A DNA stretch of 64,000 nucleotides from an uncultured Planctomycetota bacterium. Its GTDB lineage: Bacteria; Planctomycetota; UBA1135; GCA-002686595. The position numbers and the translations under genes are program-made. The DNA lies in contig CAIYPP010000109.1 in NCBI GenBank assembly GCA_903928115.1, positions 1-64,000 of the forward strand. Reading direction: 5' to 3'. This document shows, in pieces, positions 17,060 through 27,792 of the stretch. How positions within the stretch are numbered: position 1 is the stretch's first letter; the number at the start of each line of letters is the position of its first letter. The notes under the pieces were generated by a model. It did not search any database and had not been told where the DNA came from. It saw only the letters and a program-made list of their open reading frames with translations.

Positions 17060-17171
17060 AGGAAGTTCCGTCCTTGTCTGAGGTGCCTGACCTCTCACGA
17101 GGATCAAACTCCGTGCCAGTCGGGGTTCCGTGCTGGGAACGGCCTCCACGGGCCAGAGAAGGGCACCTTTT

Positions 17172-17215
17172 CTGCCAGAATGGCGCACTCATACAGCGCG
17201 CTGCCAGCGTGGCAG
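17172..17215. promoter_or_regulatory. Paired palindromes flanking a possible dnaK -10 element
   Basis: CTGCCAGCGTGGCAG (17201-17215) is a perfect 6-bp inverted repeat with a 3-bp spacer. A second, imperfect copy, CTGCCAGAATGGCGC, lies at 17172-17186. Their centres are 29 bp apart, close to three helical turns. On the minus strand the hexamer TATGAG (17188-17193) lies exactly between them, in position to be a -10 for dnaK. It is neither CIRCE nor HAIR. The layout looks like a dimeric repressor operator, but this is inference. Confidence 0.4.
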
Positions 17216-17259
17216 ATTCCGGGATTCGGATTCCGCCGACCTGCGTCCCAAGGGCGGGA

Positions 17260-17265
17260 TAGCCT
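17260..17265 (+). promoter_or_regulatory. Possible -10 of the large secreted repeat protein gene
   Basis: TAGCCT at 17260-17265 matches the TANNCT form of -10 seen at several promoters here. The -35 region is poor. It would give a leader of about 70 nt before the ATG at 17343. The rest of the 283-bp gap between dnaK and this gene contains only the paired palindromes described separately. Confidence 0.3.
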
Positions 17266-17342
17266 CTCCACAAGGACTCTCTTCCCACGCCCGACGCACA
17301 TCCGCAGCGCCGGCGCAATCACCTGCTCGCAAACGAACACCC

Positions 17343-20300
17343 ATGCAACTCCGCTCTCTCAGCCGCATCCCGACCGCCCTCGTGCTTGCCGCGTCGCTCC
17401 TGCTCACCTCCGCCGCGTCCGCTCAGTCCGGCGACGTGATGGCGATCGGCTACGACGCCTCGAACCCGCCCACGGCCGCCGAGGTCGCGCGCCACAACGC
17501 CGCCAACCCGCGCCCCGAGTACTTCGTGGGCCCGCGCTGGAGCGGTGCCGTCGGCTCTCCGCGCGTGGTCACGTGGAGCCTCGTCCCCGACGGCGTGCTC
17601 ATCCCTTCGGTGATCGGCGAGAACGCCGGCTTCAGCGGTCTGTTCAATCGCCTCGACGGTGCCTTCCTCGCCGCAGGCGGCCGCAGCGCGTGGATCCAGA
17701 GCGTGCAGGAAACGTTCGACCGCTGGGAGGCCCTCTCGGGCGTCGACTTCCAGCGCGTCACGGTTGCTGGACAGGACTGGGATGACGGTGCCGCGTGGGG
17801 CTCGACCGGAAGTGCGACCCGCGGCGACATCCGCATCTCGATGAAGCGCATCGACGCCAACGGACCCATCTCTGCCGTCGCCTACTTCCCCGGCAACGGC
17901 GACATCGTTCTCGACCGCACGGAGAACTGGGGCGACGTCACAAACCTCAACCTATACCTGCGCAACCACTTGATGTGGGCCGAGGGCATCGCCATCGGCG
18001 TCGACCTCGCCTGTCCTTCGGACGGAACGAAGCTGATGGAACCGGTCATCCCGGTCAGCTTCGATGGTCCGCGCCAGGACGACATCCGCGCCGTGCAGCG
18101 CCTCTATGGCGATCCCAACGAGCTCGATGACTCGATTGCCGCGGGAACAGACCTCGGCGCACTGCCGGTCGGCTCGTCGCTCTCGCTGGGCGACCTGCCG
18201 CTGCCCGTCACCGGTGCGAACGACGTCAACGCCTCGCTGCTCTCCATCGATGCCGATGGTGAGAGTGACTTCTTCCGCTTCTCCATCCCGACCCCCGGCG
18301 TCGCGAACATCACGGTGACGCCGATCGGCAGTGTCTATGACCTCGGCCCGAGCGGCGTCGGCGGCTGCATCAACAACGGACGCTACGACGCGAGCATTGC
18401 GGCGGACCTCGAAGTCGAGGTTCTGTCCGCCAGCGGCACCCAGCTCGGTGTGAGCACGGGTACGGCGATCGGTTTGCCCGAAACGCTCCGGCTCGTGGGT
18501 CTGCGGACTGCGGGCAACTACGCGATTCGAGTCTTTGAAAACGGCTCCCCCGTCGCTTCGCAGCTCTACCGCCTCGACATCTCGATCGCGCCTTGCACGA
18601 TCGACAGCGACGGGGACGGTACCGCGGATTGCAGCGACTTCTGTCCCGCAGACCCGCTCAAGACCGCGCCCGGCATCTGCGGCTGCGGAGTCGCGGACGC
18701 CGACACGGACCAAGATGGCACGGCCGACTGCAACGATCTCTGTCCGCTGGATGCGAACAAGGTCGCGCCGGGCGTGTGCGGCTGCGGCGTTTCCGACGTG
18801 GATAGCGACCAAGACGGCACGGCGGACTGCCTCGATCTCTGCCCCCAAGACGCGAGCAAGGTCGCGCCGGGCATCTGCGGCTGCGGTGTAGCCGACGCGG
18901 ACAGCGACCAAGACGGAACGGCCGACTGCAACGACCTCTGTCCGCAGGACGCGGGCAAGATCGCGCCGGGCGCTTGCGGGTGCGGCGTCTCGGACGCTGA
19001 CGCGGACGGTGACGGCACGCCCAACTGCAACGATCAGTGCCCGCAGGATCGCTCGAAGGTTCTCCCCGGGGCGTGCGGGTGCGGCGTGCCCGATACGGAT
19101 TCCGACGGCGACGGCACCGCCAACTGCAACGACGGCTGTCCGCAGGACGCGAGCAAAGTCGCGCCGGGCGTGTGCGGCTGCGGCGTGAGCGACGCGGACT
19201 CGGACCAGGACGGCACCGCGGACTGCAACGACCTGTGCCCGCAAGATGCGAACAAGGTCGCGCCGGGCGTGTGCGGCTGCGGCGTGGCCGACGTCGACAC
19301 CGACGGGGACCTAGTGCTCGACTGCAACGACGGCTGCCCGCAGGACGCCCTCAAGATCGCCGCGGGCCAGTGCGGCTGCGGCGTCGCGGACACCGATGCC
19401 GATGCGGACGGCGTGGCCGACTGCAATGACCTCTGCCCGCAGGACGCCGGCAAGGTCGCTCCGGGCCAGTGCGGCTGCGGCGTCGCCGACACGGACAGCG
19501 ATCAAGACGGCACTGCCGACTGCAACGATCTCTGCCCGCAGGACGCGGGCAAGGTTGCGCCGGGCATCTGCGGCTGTGGCGTGGCCGACACCGACAGCGA
19601 CCAAGACGGAACGGCGGACTGCAATGACCTCTGCCCGCAAGATGCGGCCAAGGTTGCGCCGGGCATCTGCGGCTGCGGCGTGGCCGACGCCGACAGCGAC
19701 CAAGACGGCACGGCCGACTGCAACGACGGCTGCCCGACGGACGCGGCCAAGGTGGCTCCGGGCCTGTGCGGCTGCGGCGTGGCCGACGTCGACAGCGACG
19801 GCGACCTCGTGCTCGACTGCAACGACGGCTGCCCGCAAGACGCTTCGAAGGTGGCTCCGGGACAGTGTGGCTGCGGCATCGCGGATGTCGACGCCGATGG
19901 CGACGGCACGGCCGACTGCAACGACCTCTGCCCGCAGGACGCGAGCAAGGTGGCTCCGGGCACGTGTGGCTGCGGTGTGAGCGACGCCGACTCGGACCAA
20001 GACGGTGCGGCGGACTGCGTGGACCTCTGCCCGCAAGACGCGAACAAGGTGGAGCCGGGCGCCTGCGGCTGCGGCGTCGCGGACGTCGACTCCGACGGCG
20101 ATCAGCTGCTGGACTGCGTGGACGGCTGCCCGCAGGATCCGCTGAAGTCGTCTCCGGGCCAGTGCGGCTGTGGGGCTGCGGACATCGATTCGGACGGCGA
20201 CGGCACGGCCGACTGCGTGGACCTGTGCCCGCAGGACGCGCTCAAGGTCGCCCCGGGCCAATGTGGCTGCGGTGTGCCCGATGCCGACAGCGACAACGAC

Positions 20301-21335
20301 GGCACCGTCAACTGCCTCGACGGCTGCCCGAATGACCCGCTCAAGGTGGCTCCGGGCGCCTGCGGCTGCGGCGTGAGCGACATCGATTCGGACGGGGACG
20401 GCGTCGCCAACTGCAACGACCAGTGCCCCAACGACGCGGCCAAGGTTGCGCCGGGCGTGTGCGGCTGTGGCGTGTCCGATCAGGACAGCGACGGCGACCT
20501 GACGCCGGACTGCAACGATGGGTGCCCAAACGACCCGACGAAGGTCGCGCCGGGAGTCTGCGGCTGCGGCGTGGCCGAGACGGACACGGACGGCGACGCC
20601 GTGCCCGACTGCATCGACAACTGCGTGAGCCTGGCGAACGCGCTCCAGCTCGATGCCGACGGCGACCAAGTGGGCGACGACTGCGACAACTGCCCGTCGC
20701 ACCCGAACTCGGGTCAGGGCGACTGCGACAACGACGGCGTGGGTGACGTGTGCGCCCTCGCCACCGGTCTCGAGCAAGACTGCGACAACAACGGCGTGCC
20801 CGACAGCTGCCAGCCCGACTGCAACCAAAACGGTCGCGTCGACGCCTGCGACATCCTGATGGGCACGAGCCTCGACTTGAACGCAGACTCGATCCCGGAC
20901 GACTGCCAGATCGCCTGCCCGTCGATCCAGACGTACTGCACGGCCAAGGTCAACAGCCTCGGCTGCAGCCCCACGATCGCCGGCCTCGGCGTGCCCAGCG
21001 CCTCCGCATCCTCGGGCTTCATCGTGAGCTGCTCGCAGGTCCTACCGAACCGCACCGGTCAGCTGTTCTACGGCCGGGGCCAGAACAGCGCGCCGTTCCA
21101 AGGTGGCTTCATCTGCATCCAGTCCCCGCTGCGTCGCACGCCGCTTCAGCTCGCGAGCGGCGGCACGGGCTGCGGCGGATCCTACGCCTTCGACTTCAAC
21201 GTGTGGATGGCCTCCGGCGTCGATCCCTCGCTCGTCGCGGGCACGAACGTCTTCGCTTGCTGGTGGATGCGCGATCCCGGCGCGTCGTTCAACACGGGCG
21301 TCTCGAATGCGATGACGTTCACGATCTGCCCCTGA
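17343..21335 (+). CDS. Secreted matrixin-like pseudoprotease with 20 Cys-rich calcium-type repeats
   Basis: The 1330-residue product has a signal peptide ending near ASAQS (residue about 29). Residues about 75-255 resemble matrixin-type metalloproteases, with the downstream block TKLMEP and DDIRAVQRLYGD intact. However, the place of HExxHxxGxxH reads WAEGIAIGVDL (212-222): only the Gly is kept, so zinc binding is lost. Residues about 260-415 look like a PPC-type beta domain. Then come 20 uninterrupted repeats of 33 residues, each with a DxDxDG calcium-type loop and four cysteines. A few TSP3-like loops follow. The tail (about 1200-1330) begins YCTAKVNSLGC and is a C-terminal domain typical of some planctomycetes, perhaps for surface sorting. 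Function unknown; probably an extracellular, calcium-stiffened rod. Confidence 0.85.
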   Translation: MQLRSLSRIPTALVLAASLLLTSAASAQSGDVMAIGYDASNPPTAAEVARHNAANPRPEYFVGPRWSGAVGSPRVVTWSLVPDGVLIPSVIGENAGFSGLFNRLDGAFLAAGGRSAWIQSVQETFDRWEALSGVDFQRVTVAGQDWDDGAAWGSTGSATRGDIRISMKRIDANGPISAVAYFPGNGDIVLDRTENWGDVTNLNLYLRNHLMWAEGIAIGVDLACPSDGTKLMEPVIPVSFDGPRQDDIRAVQRLYGDPNELDDSIAAGTDLGALPVGSSLSLGDLPLPVTGANDVNASLLSIDADGESDFFRFSIPTPGVANITVTPIGSVYDLGPSGVGGCINNGRYDASIAADLEVEVLSASGTQLGVSTGTAIGLPETLRLVGLRTAGNYAIRVFENGSPVASQLYRLDISIAPCTIDSDGDGTADCSDFCPADPLKTAPGICGCGVADADTDQDGTADCNDLCPLDANKVAPGVCGCGVSDVDSDQDGTADCLDLCPQDASKVAPGICGCGVADADSDQDGTADCNDLCPQDAGKIAPGACGCGVSDADADGDGTPNCNDQCPQDRSKVLPGACGCGVPDTDSDGDGTANCNDGCPQDASKVAPGVCGCGVSDADSDQDGTADCNDLCPQDANKVAPGVCGCGVADVDTDGDLVLDCNDGCPQDALKIAAGQCGCGVADTDADADGVADCNDLCPQDAGKVAPGQCGCGVADTDSDQDGTADCNDLCPQDAGKVAPGICGCGVADTDSDQDGTADCNDLCPQDAAKVAPGICGCGVADADSDQDGTADCNDGCPTDAAKVAPGLCGCGVADVDSDGDLVLDCNDGCPQDASKVAPGQCGCGIADVDADGDGTADCNDLCPQDASKVAPGTCGCGVSDADSDQDGAADCVDLCPQDANKVEPGACGCGVADVDSDGDQLLDCVDGCPQDPLKSSPGQCGCGAADIDSDGDGTADCVDLCPQDALKVAPGQCGCGVPDADSDNDGTVNCLDGCPNDPLKVAPGACGCGVSDIDSDGDGVANCNDQCPNDAAKVAPGVCGCGVSDQDSDGDLTPDCNDGCPNDPTKVAPGVCGCGVAETDTDGDAVPDCIDNCVSLANALQLDADGDQVGDDCDNCPSHPNSGQGDCDNDGVGDVCALATGLEQDCDNNGVPDSCQPDCNQNGRVDACDILMGTSLDLNADSIPDDCQIACPSIQTYCTAKVNSLGCSPTIAGLGVPSASASSGFIVSCSQVLPNRTGQLFYGRGQNSAPFQGGFICIQSPLRRTPLQLASGGTGCGGSYAFDFNVWMASGVDPSLVAGTNVFACWWMRDPGASFNTGVSNAMTFTICP
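18603..20582 (+). repeat. Tandem array of 20 in-frame 99-bp repeats
   Basis: Twenty units of exactly 99 bp run without any insertion or deletion, from 18603 to 20582. The consensus amino-acid unit has D at 1, 3 and 5, G at 6, D-C at 9-10, C-P at 14-15, K at 20, P-G at 23-24 and C-G-C-G at 26-29. Units 8 and 13 share a DLVLDCNDGC variant in the same neighbourhood, which suggests duplication of a block of about five units. Confidence 0.95.
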
Positions 21336-23710: not shown

Positions 23711-24718
23711 ATGTCCCCTTCGCCCCAACGCATCGTGCCCCAGAAGGACGCGCCCGCCTCCGTGCTGCGGCCTGCAGCGGAGGTGCTTGCGCGTGGGCAG
23801 GTGGTGCTCCTGCCGACGGAAACGCTCTACACGGCCGTGGCGAGTGTCGACGCACGGAGCGCGCTGGAAGCACTCGCCCAGGCTTCGGGTCACGCTCTTG
23901 CGCGGCTCGTCCTCTCGCGGGAAGACGTCGCGGACGCGACCGCCCCGGTACTACGACTCTGCGAGCGGTACTGGCCCGGGCCCTTGATCCTCTCGCTGCT
24001 CGAACCTTGGCGTTCGCCCGCGGACCCCAACGCGCGGCGCGTGATCGAGCTCGCGGGCACTGCGTGTGTCGGCGTCGAGCTGTCCCGAACCGTCGAAGAG
24101 TCCCTCTCGAAGTTCGGAGTGGTGCCCGCGTGCATCGTCGACACCGGCGCTACACGCCTCGGCGAGCCGTCGGCCGTCCTCGAGCTCGCGCCGGGACGCA
24201 TGCGGCTCGTCCGCCCCGGACTGCTCGACCTCGAATCCCTGCGCGCGACGGCGGGGCTTCGGATCGGCTTCGTCTGCACGGGCAACACCTGCCGCAGCCC
24301 GATGGCCGAGGGTATCGCGCGGGCGCGCCTTGCCGCCCGACTCGGAACGCGTCCCGAGAAGCTCCACGAGCTCGGATTCAGCGTGCAATCCATGGGCGTG
24401 TACGCCGGCCCGGGCGATCCCGCCTCGCGCTTCGCCGTGGAGACTCTCGCCGCGCAGGGCATCGACATCTCCGCGCATCGCGCCCAGATGGCGCTACCCG
24501 AGCTGGTGGCGAAGCTCGATCGCGTCTACGCGTTGACGCGTTCCCATCTCGAGGCGCTGCGCATGTCGCTTCCTCCGGGCAAGGATCGACACTGCGCGCT
24601 GCTCGATCCGAAGGGGCGCGACATCGCCGATCCGATCGGTGGCCCGCGCTCGGCCTACGAAGCTACCGCCGCTCAGATCGCCAGCGCGATCGACGCCCGG
24701 CTGTCCGAGTGGGCGTGA
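23711..24718 (+). CDS. Fusion of degenerate Sua5/TsaC domain and YwlE-like phosphatase
   Basis: The 335-residue protein combines two domains. Residues about 15-180 follow the Sua5/YrdC fold (GQVVLLPTETLYTAVA near 30, CERYWPGPLILSL, GRMRLVRPG before the linker), which in active enzymes makes threonylcarbamoyl-AMP for tRNA t6A. Here YGL becomes YTA and the KxR substrate motif is not visible. Residues about 185-335 are a low-molecular-weight phosphatase: P-loop CTGNTCRSP near 190 and the general-acid segment DPIGGPRSAYE. Thr in the P-loop (usual LMW-PTP has Ile) is the mark of the arginine phosphatase YwlE. In B. subtilis ywlC (Sua5) and ywlE are near neighbours. A 7-bp hairpin (23685-23706) sits just before the ATG. 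Confidence 0.85.
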   Translation: MSPSPQRIVPQKDAPASVLRPAAEVLARGQVVLLPTETLYTAVASVDARSALEALAQASGHALARLVLSREDVADATAPVLRLCERYWPGPLILSLLEPWRSPADPNARRVIELAGTACVGVELSRTVEESLSKFGVVPACIVDTGATRLGEPSAVLELAPGRMRLVRPGLLDLESLRATAGLRIGFVCTGNTCRSPMAEGIARARLAARLGTRPEKLHELGFSVQSMGVYAGPGDPASRFAVETLAAQGIDISAHRAQMALPELVAKLDRVYALTRSHLEALRMSLPPGKDRHCALLDPKGRDIADPIGGPRSAYEATAAQIASAIDARLSEWA

Positions 24719-24728
24719 GCACGGCCGC

Positions 24729-27302
24729 TCAACGCGCCGCAAGCCAGTCCGCCGGAAGACCGAGCTGCATCGCGCGAGCTCCGGCGGGCGTCCGTGCGAT
24801 CTGCGGACAACTCTGTAGGGCCTTCTGAGCCGCCGAGCGGGCCGCGCGGAGATCACCCGCCGCATGGAGTGCCGCGGCCGCGTAGGCGTGGACATCTCCT
24901 CGCTCCGGACGCAGCTCGGCCGCGGTGACCACTTCGCGCACGGCCGTCGCGACATCTCCGCTGCCGAGCGCCGCAACACCCCTGCGCAAGCTTGCGGTGA
25001 ACTCGAGTTCCTCGCGGAACGCCAGCACCTCGGGGTCCCTCCTGCCTGCGGGATCCAGCGCGGCGAGCGCCTCGAGTGCGCGCTCGCGCGGAGCTTCCGG
25101 CGAGCTCTCGCCCCGTCGGGCAGCCAGCTCGGCCCAACCGTGGGCAATGCGCGCCTCTCGCAGCACCACGAGCGCGGAATCCCGAGCGGGCTCGCCCCAA
25201 CTCAGCCGACTCCCCTGCTGCTGCAACCGCTCGAGGTTGGCGGGAAGCCACGCGAGAACCGCAGTTCCGCTCGCCTTCGCGCGCCACGCGATCCAGGGAT
25301 CATCGTCCAGCAACGCGCGCGTGCCGCCCTCCCACGCCGCCAGCGAGGCGACATGGCGGGAAGCGATCCCGTCCGTGGTGTCGAGGCCGAGCTGCACGAG
25401 AGACGCGCGACAGTTCGCGCCCAGAGCGCGCAGCCGCTCTTCTCGAACGCGTGGCTCACCTTCTGTTCCCGTCAGCAAGAGCTGGGTGCCGAAGAGCCAC
25501 ACCCGCGCGTCGAGGAACGACCGCCCGAACGCTGCGAGCAGCGCGTCGAGCGTCTCGGGAGGAACCGCGTGCGGCGGAATCCACTGGCAGTAGACACCGC
25601 CGGGCCGCAGCGCACGCCGGGCCACTTCGTAGAACTCCGGCGTGTAGAGGTACACGCCGAACGGCGAGTCGGGCAGCAACGGCTCCATCGTCAGCACGTC
25701 GTAGCGCGCCTCCGCGCCCGCCAACGTGCGGCGTCCGTCGTCGATGATCACCCGAACGCGTGCGTGGTCGCCGAGCGCGCCGCGCTGAAGGTCGTCGAAC
25801 AGCGGCGCAGCAGCCACCACGGCGCTCGAAATCTCGAGCACATCGATCGAGCGCACCTCGTCGTGCAGCGAAACGGCGCCGAGGGTCGTGCCTGTCCCCA
25901 AGGCGAGTACCGCGACTCGCTCCGGCTCGGGATGCAGCAGGACAGGCAAGTGCCCCAGTGCACGCATGTACCGATAGTCGGGCCCATTGCCCGCGGCGCG
26001 GAACTGGTCCGTCAGCAGAGTGCGCTCGCCGAGGATGCCATCATCGACGACCGCGACGGAGAAGTGCTCGTCCTCGCGGAAGGAGCGAACCGTCAGCGCA
26101 GCATCGGTGAGCTTTGGGGAGAAGAGCGCTGGCGGAACGCGCGAGGCCGCGAGGGCTCCGAGCAACGCACCGAACAGCGCGAGAAGAGCCACAGCGCGCC
26201 GTGCACCCGTGCGCCAAGCCACGACGCACGCGAGTGCGGCGCCGAGAACCACCAGCAGTGCAATCGTCCCGCGAATTCCAAAGTGAGGCAGCACGAACGC
26301 ATGAACGAGCGGACCCGCGGCGAGCCCGCCCGCGACCTCAGCCGCGTACAAGTCTCCCAAGCGGCGCCCGCTCTCACCCTCACCGAGCGCATGCAAGCAC
26401 GGCACGACCGCGCCGAGAGGCGCCATCGTCGGGACCACCAAAACGAGCGCCATCGCGACGTCCCCGTACGCGCGAGCCCACTGCAGTACGCCCGCGGCGA
26501 ACAGCGGCCACGTCGAACCCAACGCGCACGCGGCCAGACACAGAGAGATGGCGAGACGGCCCAGTGGAATCCGCTGCGCCACGGCAGAACCGAGAGCGAG
26601 CGCGAGCAGAGAGATCGCGACGACAAGGAGGAGCTGCGACGCCTCGCTTCCGATCCACATCACCGCGACACGGGCGCACACCCACTCCAATCCGAGCCCC
26701 CACAGCGTGGTCAGCGCGACGAGGACCTGCGCCAGGCGGTCCGGCGGTGCGGGCGCCGATGCGACGTAGGTTCCTCCGTTGGAGAATTTGCCGAGCAAGC
26801 CAAACGCGCCCATCAACGCGAGCAGCCCGATCCCCGCGGCGGGAGCACGGCCCCACTCGGAGACGGCGAACCAGCCGACGAACCAAGCGCCCAACAAACA
26901 GCCGAGCAGGTTGCACGAGAGCAGAGCCCCAACGCGCGCCGCCGCACTCGCGCGGGCGGCGAGCGGCAGAAAATACCCCGACGCAACAGCCACGCACCCG
27001 AGGGCGACCAGAGCACGCAGCGTGCCCGCACCGTCGAAGCGTCGCGCGATCTCGGCGAGGACCACACCTGCGATGGCCAGCGCTGCCCCCACGAGCGCGC
27101 CCCGACGCACGGAAGCTCGACTGCGACCCGCGAGTGCGGCACCAAGGGCCCACCCGGCGACATAGGCACCGGGGCCATAGGCACCGGCAGCCGACTGTCC
27201 CGCCATCAGGCCAGCACGGCCAAGCCACACGGCCTGCAGCCCCATGCCTCCGGCCCCGGCCAGCGCCGCGGCGAGGTGCAGACCGAACCTCGGACCCGCC
27301 AT
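24729..27302 (-). CDS. Membrane-bound spermidine synthase-like protein
   Basis: The 857-residue protein has an N-terminal membrane half (about 1-420, roughly a dozen hydrophobic segments) fused to a spermidine-synthase-like Rossmann domain at about 425-650. That domain has VAVLALGTGTTLGAV, the DVLEIS acidic strand, VIIDDGRRTL and LYTPEFYEVARRALRPGGVYCQW. The last 170 residues are helical and TPR-like. Such fusions are common in Planctomycetota and other phyla, and whether they make polyamines is not proven. ATG at 27302 was chosen because it leaves 10 bp after the EIIA stop; an in-frame extension to 27392 overlaps that gene. It ends 10 bp from the convergent fusion gene. Confidence 0.82.
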   Translation of the reverse strand: MAGPRFGLHLAAALAGAGGMGLQAVWLGRAGLMAGQSAAGAYGPGAYVAGWALGAALAGRSRASVRRGALVGAALAIAGVVLAEIARRFDGAGTLRALVALGCVAVASGYFLPLAARASAAARVGALLSCNLLGCLLGAWFVGWFAVSEWGRAPAAGIGLLALMGAFGLLGKFSNGGTYVASAPAPPDRLAQVLVALTTLWGLGLEWVCARVAVMWIGSEASQLLLVVAISLLALALGSAVAQRIPLGRLAISLCLAACALGSTWPLFAAGVLQWARAYGDVAMALVLVVPTMAPLGAVVPCLHALGEGESGRRLGDLYAAEVAGGLAAGPLVHAFVLPHFGIRGTIALLVVLGAALACVVAWRTGARRAVALLALFGALLGALAASRVPPALFSPKLTDAALTVRSFREDEHFSVAVVDDGILGERTLLTDQFRAAGNGPDYRYMRALGHLPVLLHPEPERVAVLALGTGTTLGAVSLHDEVRSIDVLEISSAVVAAAPLFDDLQRGALGDHARVRVIIDDGRRTLAGAEARYDVLTMEPLLPDSPFGVYLYTPEFYEVARRALRPGGVYCQWIPPHAVPPETLDALLAAFGRSFLDARVWLFGTQLLLTGTEGEPRVREERLRALGANCRASLVQLGLDTTDGIASRHVASLAAWEGGTRALLDDDPWIAWRAKASGTAVLAWLPANLERLQQQGSRLSWGEPARDSALVVLREARIAHGWAELAARRGESSPEAPRERALEALAALDPAGRRDPEVLAFREELEFTASLRRGVAALGSGDVATAVREVVTAAELRPERGDVHAYAAAALHAAGDLRAARSAAQKALQSCPQIARTPAGARAMQLGLPADWLAAR

Positions 27303-27312
27303 GGGGGGCGCG

Positions 27313-27792
27313 TCAGCGCCGCGCAGCCGCGTCACCCGCAGCGAGGCTCTCCCAAGCCCGCGCGGCATCTGGCGCCGCCAGGATCGCCTCACGCACCCCG
27401 TCGTTGCCGAGGACGCGCGCGACGTCCGCCAGCGTGCGGATGTGGAGCAGCTTCTGCGAGCGCGGAATCACCAGCAGCACCACGATGCGCGTGGGCTGCC
27501 CGTCGATGCTCTCGAACTCCAGTCCGCGATCGCGCTGCACGATGCCCATGCACGCGACCACATGGTCCACCTGCTCGACGGCGGCATGCGGAATCGCGAT
27601 GCCACGCTCCATCCCGGTCGACATCGAGCGCTCGCGGGCGAGCACCTGCTCCACCACCGAACTGGCCGCGGCCGCGGGCAGCTTCCCCTGCACCACGAGG
27701 TTCTGCACCAGCTTCGAGATCGCGTCCCACTTGTCCCCGGGGTCGAAGCCGACGATCAAGTCGCCCGGCGCGAAGAGCTGTCGCAGTTCCAT
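27313..27792 (-). CDS. ptsN: PTS EIIA-type (PtsN-like) regulatory protein
   Basis: The 159-residue cytosolic protein is a fructose/mannitol-class EIIA domain. The phosphorylated histidine is His69 in RGIAIPHAAVE, and the following GIVQRDRGLEF and VVLLVIPRS strands match the family. With no EIIB/EIIC domain fused, it most resembles PtsN (EIIA-Ntr), which regulates rather than transports. It starts with ATG 12 bp before the window's TACCG-rich intergenic region and is followed directly by the membrane spermidine-synthase-like gene, with which it is probably cotranscribed. Confidence 0.86.
   Translation of the reverse strand: MELRQLFAPGDLIVGFDPGDKWDAISKLVQNLVVQGKLPAAAASSVVEQVLARERSMSTGMERGIAIPHAAVEQVDHVVACMGIVQRDRGLEFESIDGQPTRIVVLLVIPRSQKLLHIRTLADVARVLGNDGVREAILAAPDAARAWESLAAGDAAARR

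Follow-up and report, generated by a model that had tools for sequence, protein, structure and literature searches.

The window analysed here is a 64,000-nt stretch of DNA from an uncultured Planctomycetota bacterium. It contains, on the forward strand, an unbroken ORF of 335 aa with an ATG start and a TGA stop, in which a domain derived from TsaC/Sua5 precedes a phosphatase domain of the YwlE type. The gene and its main features are as follows:

23711..24718, + strand: fusion gene, TsaC/Sua5-derived domain plus YwlE-type LMW phosphatase, 335 aa
23780..24253, + strand: degenerate TsaC/Sua5 (YrdC-fold) domain, approximately residues 24-181; KxR, SxN and YGL lost, WPGP kept
24254..24715, + strand: putative YwlE-type arginine phosphatase domain, residues 182-335; Pfam LMWPc match and solved relatives
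24275..24298, + strand: P-loop, C189 TGNTCR S196, with the catalytic Cys and Arg; Thr193 corresponds to YwlE Thr11
24629..24643, + strand: general-acid motif D307-P-I-G-G311; YwlE counterpart DPFGG

The genes flanking it run in the other direction: upstream are a histidine kinase and an NtrC-type regulator, downstream is a spermine-synthase-like gene. The fusion gene thus looks like a single transcription unit. The ORF at 24729-27392 (-) encodes 887 aa, with a spermine/spermidine synthase domain following a hydrophobic N-terminal part. Elsewhere in the window, a 1401-aa protein encoded at 17130-21335 (+) carries many Cys-rich and Asp-rich repeats resembling thrombospondin type 3 repeats, and is probably secreted and calcium-binding.

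Both halves of the fusion protein were recognized by several approaches. Pfam LMWPc matched residues 185-327 (E 8e-22) and Sua5_yciO_yrdC (PF01300) matched residues 24-96 (E 2e-10), the latter match being confined to positions 1-81 of the 178 in the profile. An AlphaFold2 model built with 101 homologues had a pLDDT of 97.5 and a pTM of 0.92, with high confidence in both halves, and a Foldseek search with this model returned YwlE, Sua5, TsaC2 and YciO. The best solved relatives are TsaC2/Sua5 for the N-terminal half and, for the C-terminal half, the LMW phosphatase of Thermoanaerobacter tengcongensis (4egs) followed by YwlE (4pic/1zgg/4kk3). That is, the N-terminal half has the YrdC/Sua5 fold according to Pfam, AlphaFold2 and Foldseek, and the C-terminal half has the CX5R P-loop and catalytic Asp of an LMW phosphatase; C189, R195 and D307 do not vary across the 136 genomes with the fusion. 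The initial annotation, made from the sequence of the locus, had proposed a degenerate Sua5 fold joined to a YwlE-type phosphatase in one protein, and Pfam, the motifs, AlphaFold2 and Foldseek all support this; the P-loop (C189-T-G-N-T193-C-R-S) is present exactly as it described. Homologues from the same genus, 60-62% identical, carry both halves, so the fusion is not a chance or mis-called frame. A chance frame or mis-assembly was ruled out by the recurrence of the fusion in more than 100 genomes.

The catalytic motifs of TsaC/Sua5 are missing from the window protein. Neither KxR nor SxN was found anywhere in residues 1-181, the stretch between residues 13 and 133 is free of Lys, and the sequence reads PTETLYT where the intact motif is PTETVYG. 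The score against TIGR00057, the NCBIfam model of the threonylcarbamoyl-AMP (TC-AMP) synthase, was 41 bits, below the cut-off of 123.2. The loss of KxR and YGL had been pointed out before and was borne out here, with the loss of SxN coming on top, and a profile search did not recover the full set of TsaC active-site residues. The N-terminal half therefore reads as non-catalytic, with the reservation that motif loss is not proof of lost activity.

The genome to which the window belongs (4.3 Mb, 88% complete) was searched for the proteins that the initial annotation had named for checking, and all of them were found. An McsB (G000:C124:22430-23047) matches 6FH1 with an E-value of 2e-69 and keeps the catalytic blocks, and scores 354 bits against NF002194, under the 385-bit cut-off of that model. 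A ClpC-type protein (L321:3797-6478) aligns both N-domain Glu residues corresponding to Glu32 and Glu106 of B. subtilis ClpC, which bind phosphoarginine. A ctsR-mcsA-mcsB-clpC operon was not seen: mcsB and the ClpC-type gene are on different contigs (C124 and C141, respectively), and no neighbours belonging to a ctsR operon were seen. A second TsaC, separate from the fusion and with intact motifs, is split across two contigs that have 141 identical bases in common. The only other LMWPc protein carries CVENSCRS, a loop like that of arsenate reductases, which leaves the fusion as the sole YwlE-like LMW phosphatase detected in the genome. The B. subtilis genome included for comparison gave no match for PF00217 (McsB) or PF02861 (Clp_N) and was not relied on as a control; the species has both genes, and the mcsB-clpC stretch may be absent from the copy used.

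Of the 147 Planctomycetota genomes sampled, about 107 have the full fusion; as fusion status was defined by profile coverage, genes that are split or lie at a contig edge may have been counted wrongly. In a scan of a larger genome collection the fused relatives were almost all from Planctomycetota, with single loci from Omnitrophota and Aerophobetes. Protein-arginine phosphorylation has been studied almost entirely in Gram-positive bacteria, and here McsB was present in 142 of the 147 planctomycete genomes, i.e. in 106 of 107 genomes with the fusion versus 36 of 40 without it (p 0.02, kinship ignored). With so many planctomycetes carrying McsB without the fusion, the two are not obligately linked, and a strict McsB-fusion coupling was set aside. 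Several families, f16 and f45 among them, have McsB and a stand-alone TsaC without the full TsaC-YwlE fusion. In nine of the ten loci tested, including the one from Omnitrophota, rpiB directly follows the fused gene; in the window genome rpiB does not adjoin the fusion gene. The ywlC / ywlE / ywlF (rpiB) region of B. subtilis has this same gene set and order, and the fusion arose most simply by the joining of neighbouring genes. No paper describing the TsaC-YwlE fusion was found among open-access papers, and public databases may already include this domain architecture.

A pattern emerged when the state of the fused TsaC half was compared with the presence of a separate TsaC. The 136 genomes, each with one fused gene, were scored for the catalytic Lys of KxR and for the SxN motif, and free TsaC was sought separately via PF01300; second matches in frames of about 760-1070 aa were excluded as HypF (two, L114 and L126, were checked, the rest judged by frame length), an extra match in G141 was a real free TsaC and one in G160 was not a clear one. 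As the genomes are mostly incomplete metagenome-assembled genomes, absence of a free TsaC means that none was detected. Where none was detected (104 genomes), both motifs were kept in 101 cases, one motif in two and none in one; where a free TsaC was present (32 genomes), the corresponding counts were two, four and 26 (Fisher p ~2e-24 over the 136 genomes, kinship ignored). The best tree for the phosphatase half, which is weakly resolved, yielded 15 independent pairs differing in decay; 13 of them agreed with the association and none opposed it. When only supported branches were used, five independent pairs were left, about four agreeing and none opposing; the sign test was not significant (median p 0.125), significance being unreachable with five pairs. 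Three genomes depart from the pattern: the fused half is decayed in G127 although no free TsaC was found there, and it is intact in G007 and G069 although both have one. The genus of the window itself contains both states: in five members (G000, which is the window genome, G002, G003, G005 and G006) the fused TsaC half is decayed and a free TsaC is present, and in G001 the fused half is intact, passing TIGR00057 with 135.7 bits against the cut-off of 123.2, and no free TsaC was found, the sole other PF01300 match being HypF-like. Loss of the catalytic residues is likewise seen, at the level of sequence, in at least several other lineages. In most fused members the motif-intact TsaC half is the only TsaC detected, which makes the protein probably bifunctional there. 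The phylum-wide occurrence of the fusion, the usually intact state of its TsaC half and the tracking of decay with free TsaC had all been overlooked in the initial annotation.

The explanation we favour, with a probability of roughly 0.7, is that the window protein is a YwlE-type arginine phosphatase bearing a dead N-terminal TsaC domain, descended from an old bifunctional fusion that became a pseudoenzyme after a free TsaC was gained. The sequences themselves show the fusion, the loss of motifs, the free TsaC, McsB and ClpC in the genome, and the association of motif loss with a free TsaC; the enzymatic activities, the order of gains and losses and what the dead domain does are inferred as follows. 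An ancestral TsaC-YwlE fusion, old and widespread in Planctomycetota, would have combined synthesis of the t6A precursor with removal of phosphoarginine. A separate Sua5-type TsaC would then have been gained in several lineages, including that of the window, and the TsaC duty would have moved to this free copy. The fused TsaC half would subsequently have lost KxR and SxN while staying folded and under purifying selection, and may now serve the phosphatase as a non-catalytic module, either for stability or for delivery to clients, possibly the t6A machinery. The C-terminal half would reverse phosphorylation by McsB, such that tagged proteins are spared from ClpC.

A link between t6A and phosphoarginine has indeed been published in B. 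subtilis, where R282 of TsaD is a target of McsB/YwlE and the protein is degraded by ClpCP (PMC7546277); this part of an earlier suggestion stands, whereas its other part, sensing by the N-terminal half, is unsupported (see below). The TsaD result makes targeting to t6A proteins a reasonable role for the dead domain. The stronger proposal, that the dead TsaC module has repeatedly been turned into a targeting module bringing the arginine phosphatase to TsaD or to the free TsaC, is unlikely and is put forward only tentatively. If it were true, t6A and phosphoarginine quality control would be coupled in one polypeptide, by catalysis or by binding depending on the lineage.

It is also conceivable, although rather doubtful, that the fusion has no meaning, that is, that neighbours in the tsaC-ywlE-rpiB order became one frame when a stop codon was lost and that the dead half is mere baggage, kept for folding or translation of the phosphatase. 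The position of rpiB right after the fused gene would fit this, as would two planctomycete loci (L096 and L104) in which an ORF with the CTGNTCRS loop has no Sua5 half. Selection on the domain speaks partly for it: among three relatives in the window genus, dN/dS was 0.43-0.56 for the N-terminal half versus 0.18-0.24 for the phosphatase half, which suggests that relaxed constraint is partly involved. Across pairs, however, dN/dS of the decayed half was mostly 0.1-0.55, and among the closest pairs it was 0.28 (G002/G005), 0.11 (G083/G101), 0.12 (G042/G072) and 0.16 (G141/G127), i.e. 0.11-0.16 in three separate lineages. The domain is moreover full-length in the decayed lineages sampled and its predicted fold is confident, which also argues against baggage.

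That the C-terminal half is an ordinary phosphotyrosine phosphatase instead of an arginine phosphatase appears improbable. The Pfam assignment is to LMWPc in general and no curated YwlE model was matched, but Thr193 occupies the position of YwlE Thr11, and in both YwlE and S. aureus PtpB a change of this residue to Ile moves activity away from phosphoarginine (PMC8001253). The DPIGG motif is YwlE-like, the best matches include YwlE structures and McsB is present in the genome. The predicted arginine specificity of the window protein is based on one loop residue and on similarity to YwlE. Thr is found at this position in 113 of 136 fused relatives and is replaced in the other 23 (by Ser in 7, Ile in 6, Leu in 6, Arg in 3 and Met in 1); McsB was present in those non-Thr relatives that were checked. 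Ile, Leu, Met or Arg at the specificity position, as in G028, G032, G036, G041, G052, G065, G078, G087, G096, G103, G152 and others, suggests that the fused phosphatase selects different substrates in these lineages, and the occurrence of such residues lends the phosphotyrosine reading some weight.

Still less probable is a role of the N-terminal half as a regulatory sensor that would gate the phosphatase by still binding TC-AMP, threonine or ATP. The fold is kept in the AlphaFold2 model, the substrate-side loop PTET.Y is partly retained in many decayed copies, and the B. subtilis work ties t6A to phosphoarginine (PMC7546277). Sensing of TC-AMP, as initially proposed, is nevertheless less likely because the ligand-site motifs are lost: KxR and SxN are gone together with other residues that are invariant in intact copies. 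What the decayed copies have in common (W88, P89, G90, P91, D144, G146 and G170) is mostly structural and excludes the catalytic positions, and evolution in the window genus is faster for this half than for the phosphatase half. Finally, it is extremely unlikely that the decayed half still makes TC-AMP through a modified active site while the free copy has another role: no catalytic position in the domain is occupied by Lys or Asn, the motifs of the free copy are intact and motif loss is almost confined to genomes with a free copy.

In planctomycetes the phosphatase that would counteract McsB is often joined to the enzyme for the first step of t6A, a near-universal tRNA modification, which suggests that the two pathways are tied and fits the TsaD result from B. 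subtilis. Repeated loss of TsaC motifs, nearly always beside a free TsaC, is also a natural experiment in the origin of pseudoenzymes, and the window genus offers intact and decayed versions for comparison.

Like the YwlE proteins of B. subtilis and G. stearothermophilus and PtpB of S. aureus, the window protein has the LMW-PTP fold, the CTGNTCRS loop with the specificity Thr and the catalytic Asp, and its genome encodes McsB and a ClpC-type protein as YwlE systems do. It differs from them in carrying a TsaC-derived domain and in that its gene is not beside rpiB, and its phosphatase activity is a prediction. With the TC-AMP synthases TsaC/Sua5/YwlC it shares the overall YrdC fold and WPGP, and its relative G001 passes TIGR00057, whereas the window domain lacks KxR, SxN and YGL, falls under the TIGR00057 cut-off and coexists with a separate intact TsaC. 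In the B. subtilis ywlC / ywlE / ywlF (rpiB) region, unlike in the planctomycete fusion, the genes are separate and both enzymes intact. The closest solved sequence, the YwlE-like LMW phosphatase of T. tengcongensis (PDB 4egs), is named RpiB; this molecule name suggests a phosphatase-RpiB fusion, i.e. with the other neighbour in the tsaC-ywlE-rpiB order. There the partner is a different one and the RpiB half, inferred from the name, lies outside the solved chain.
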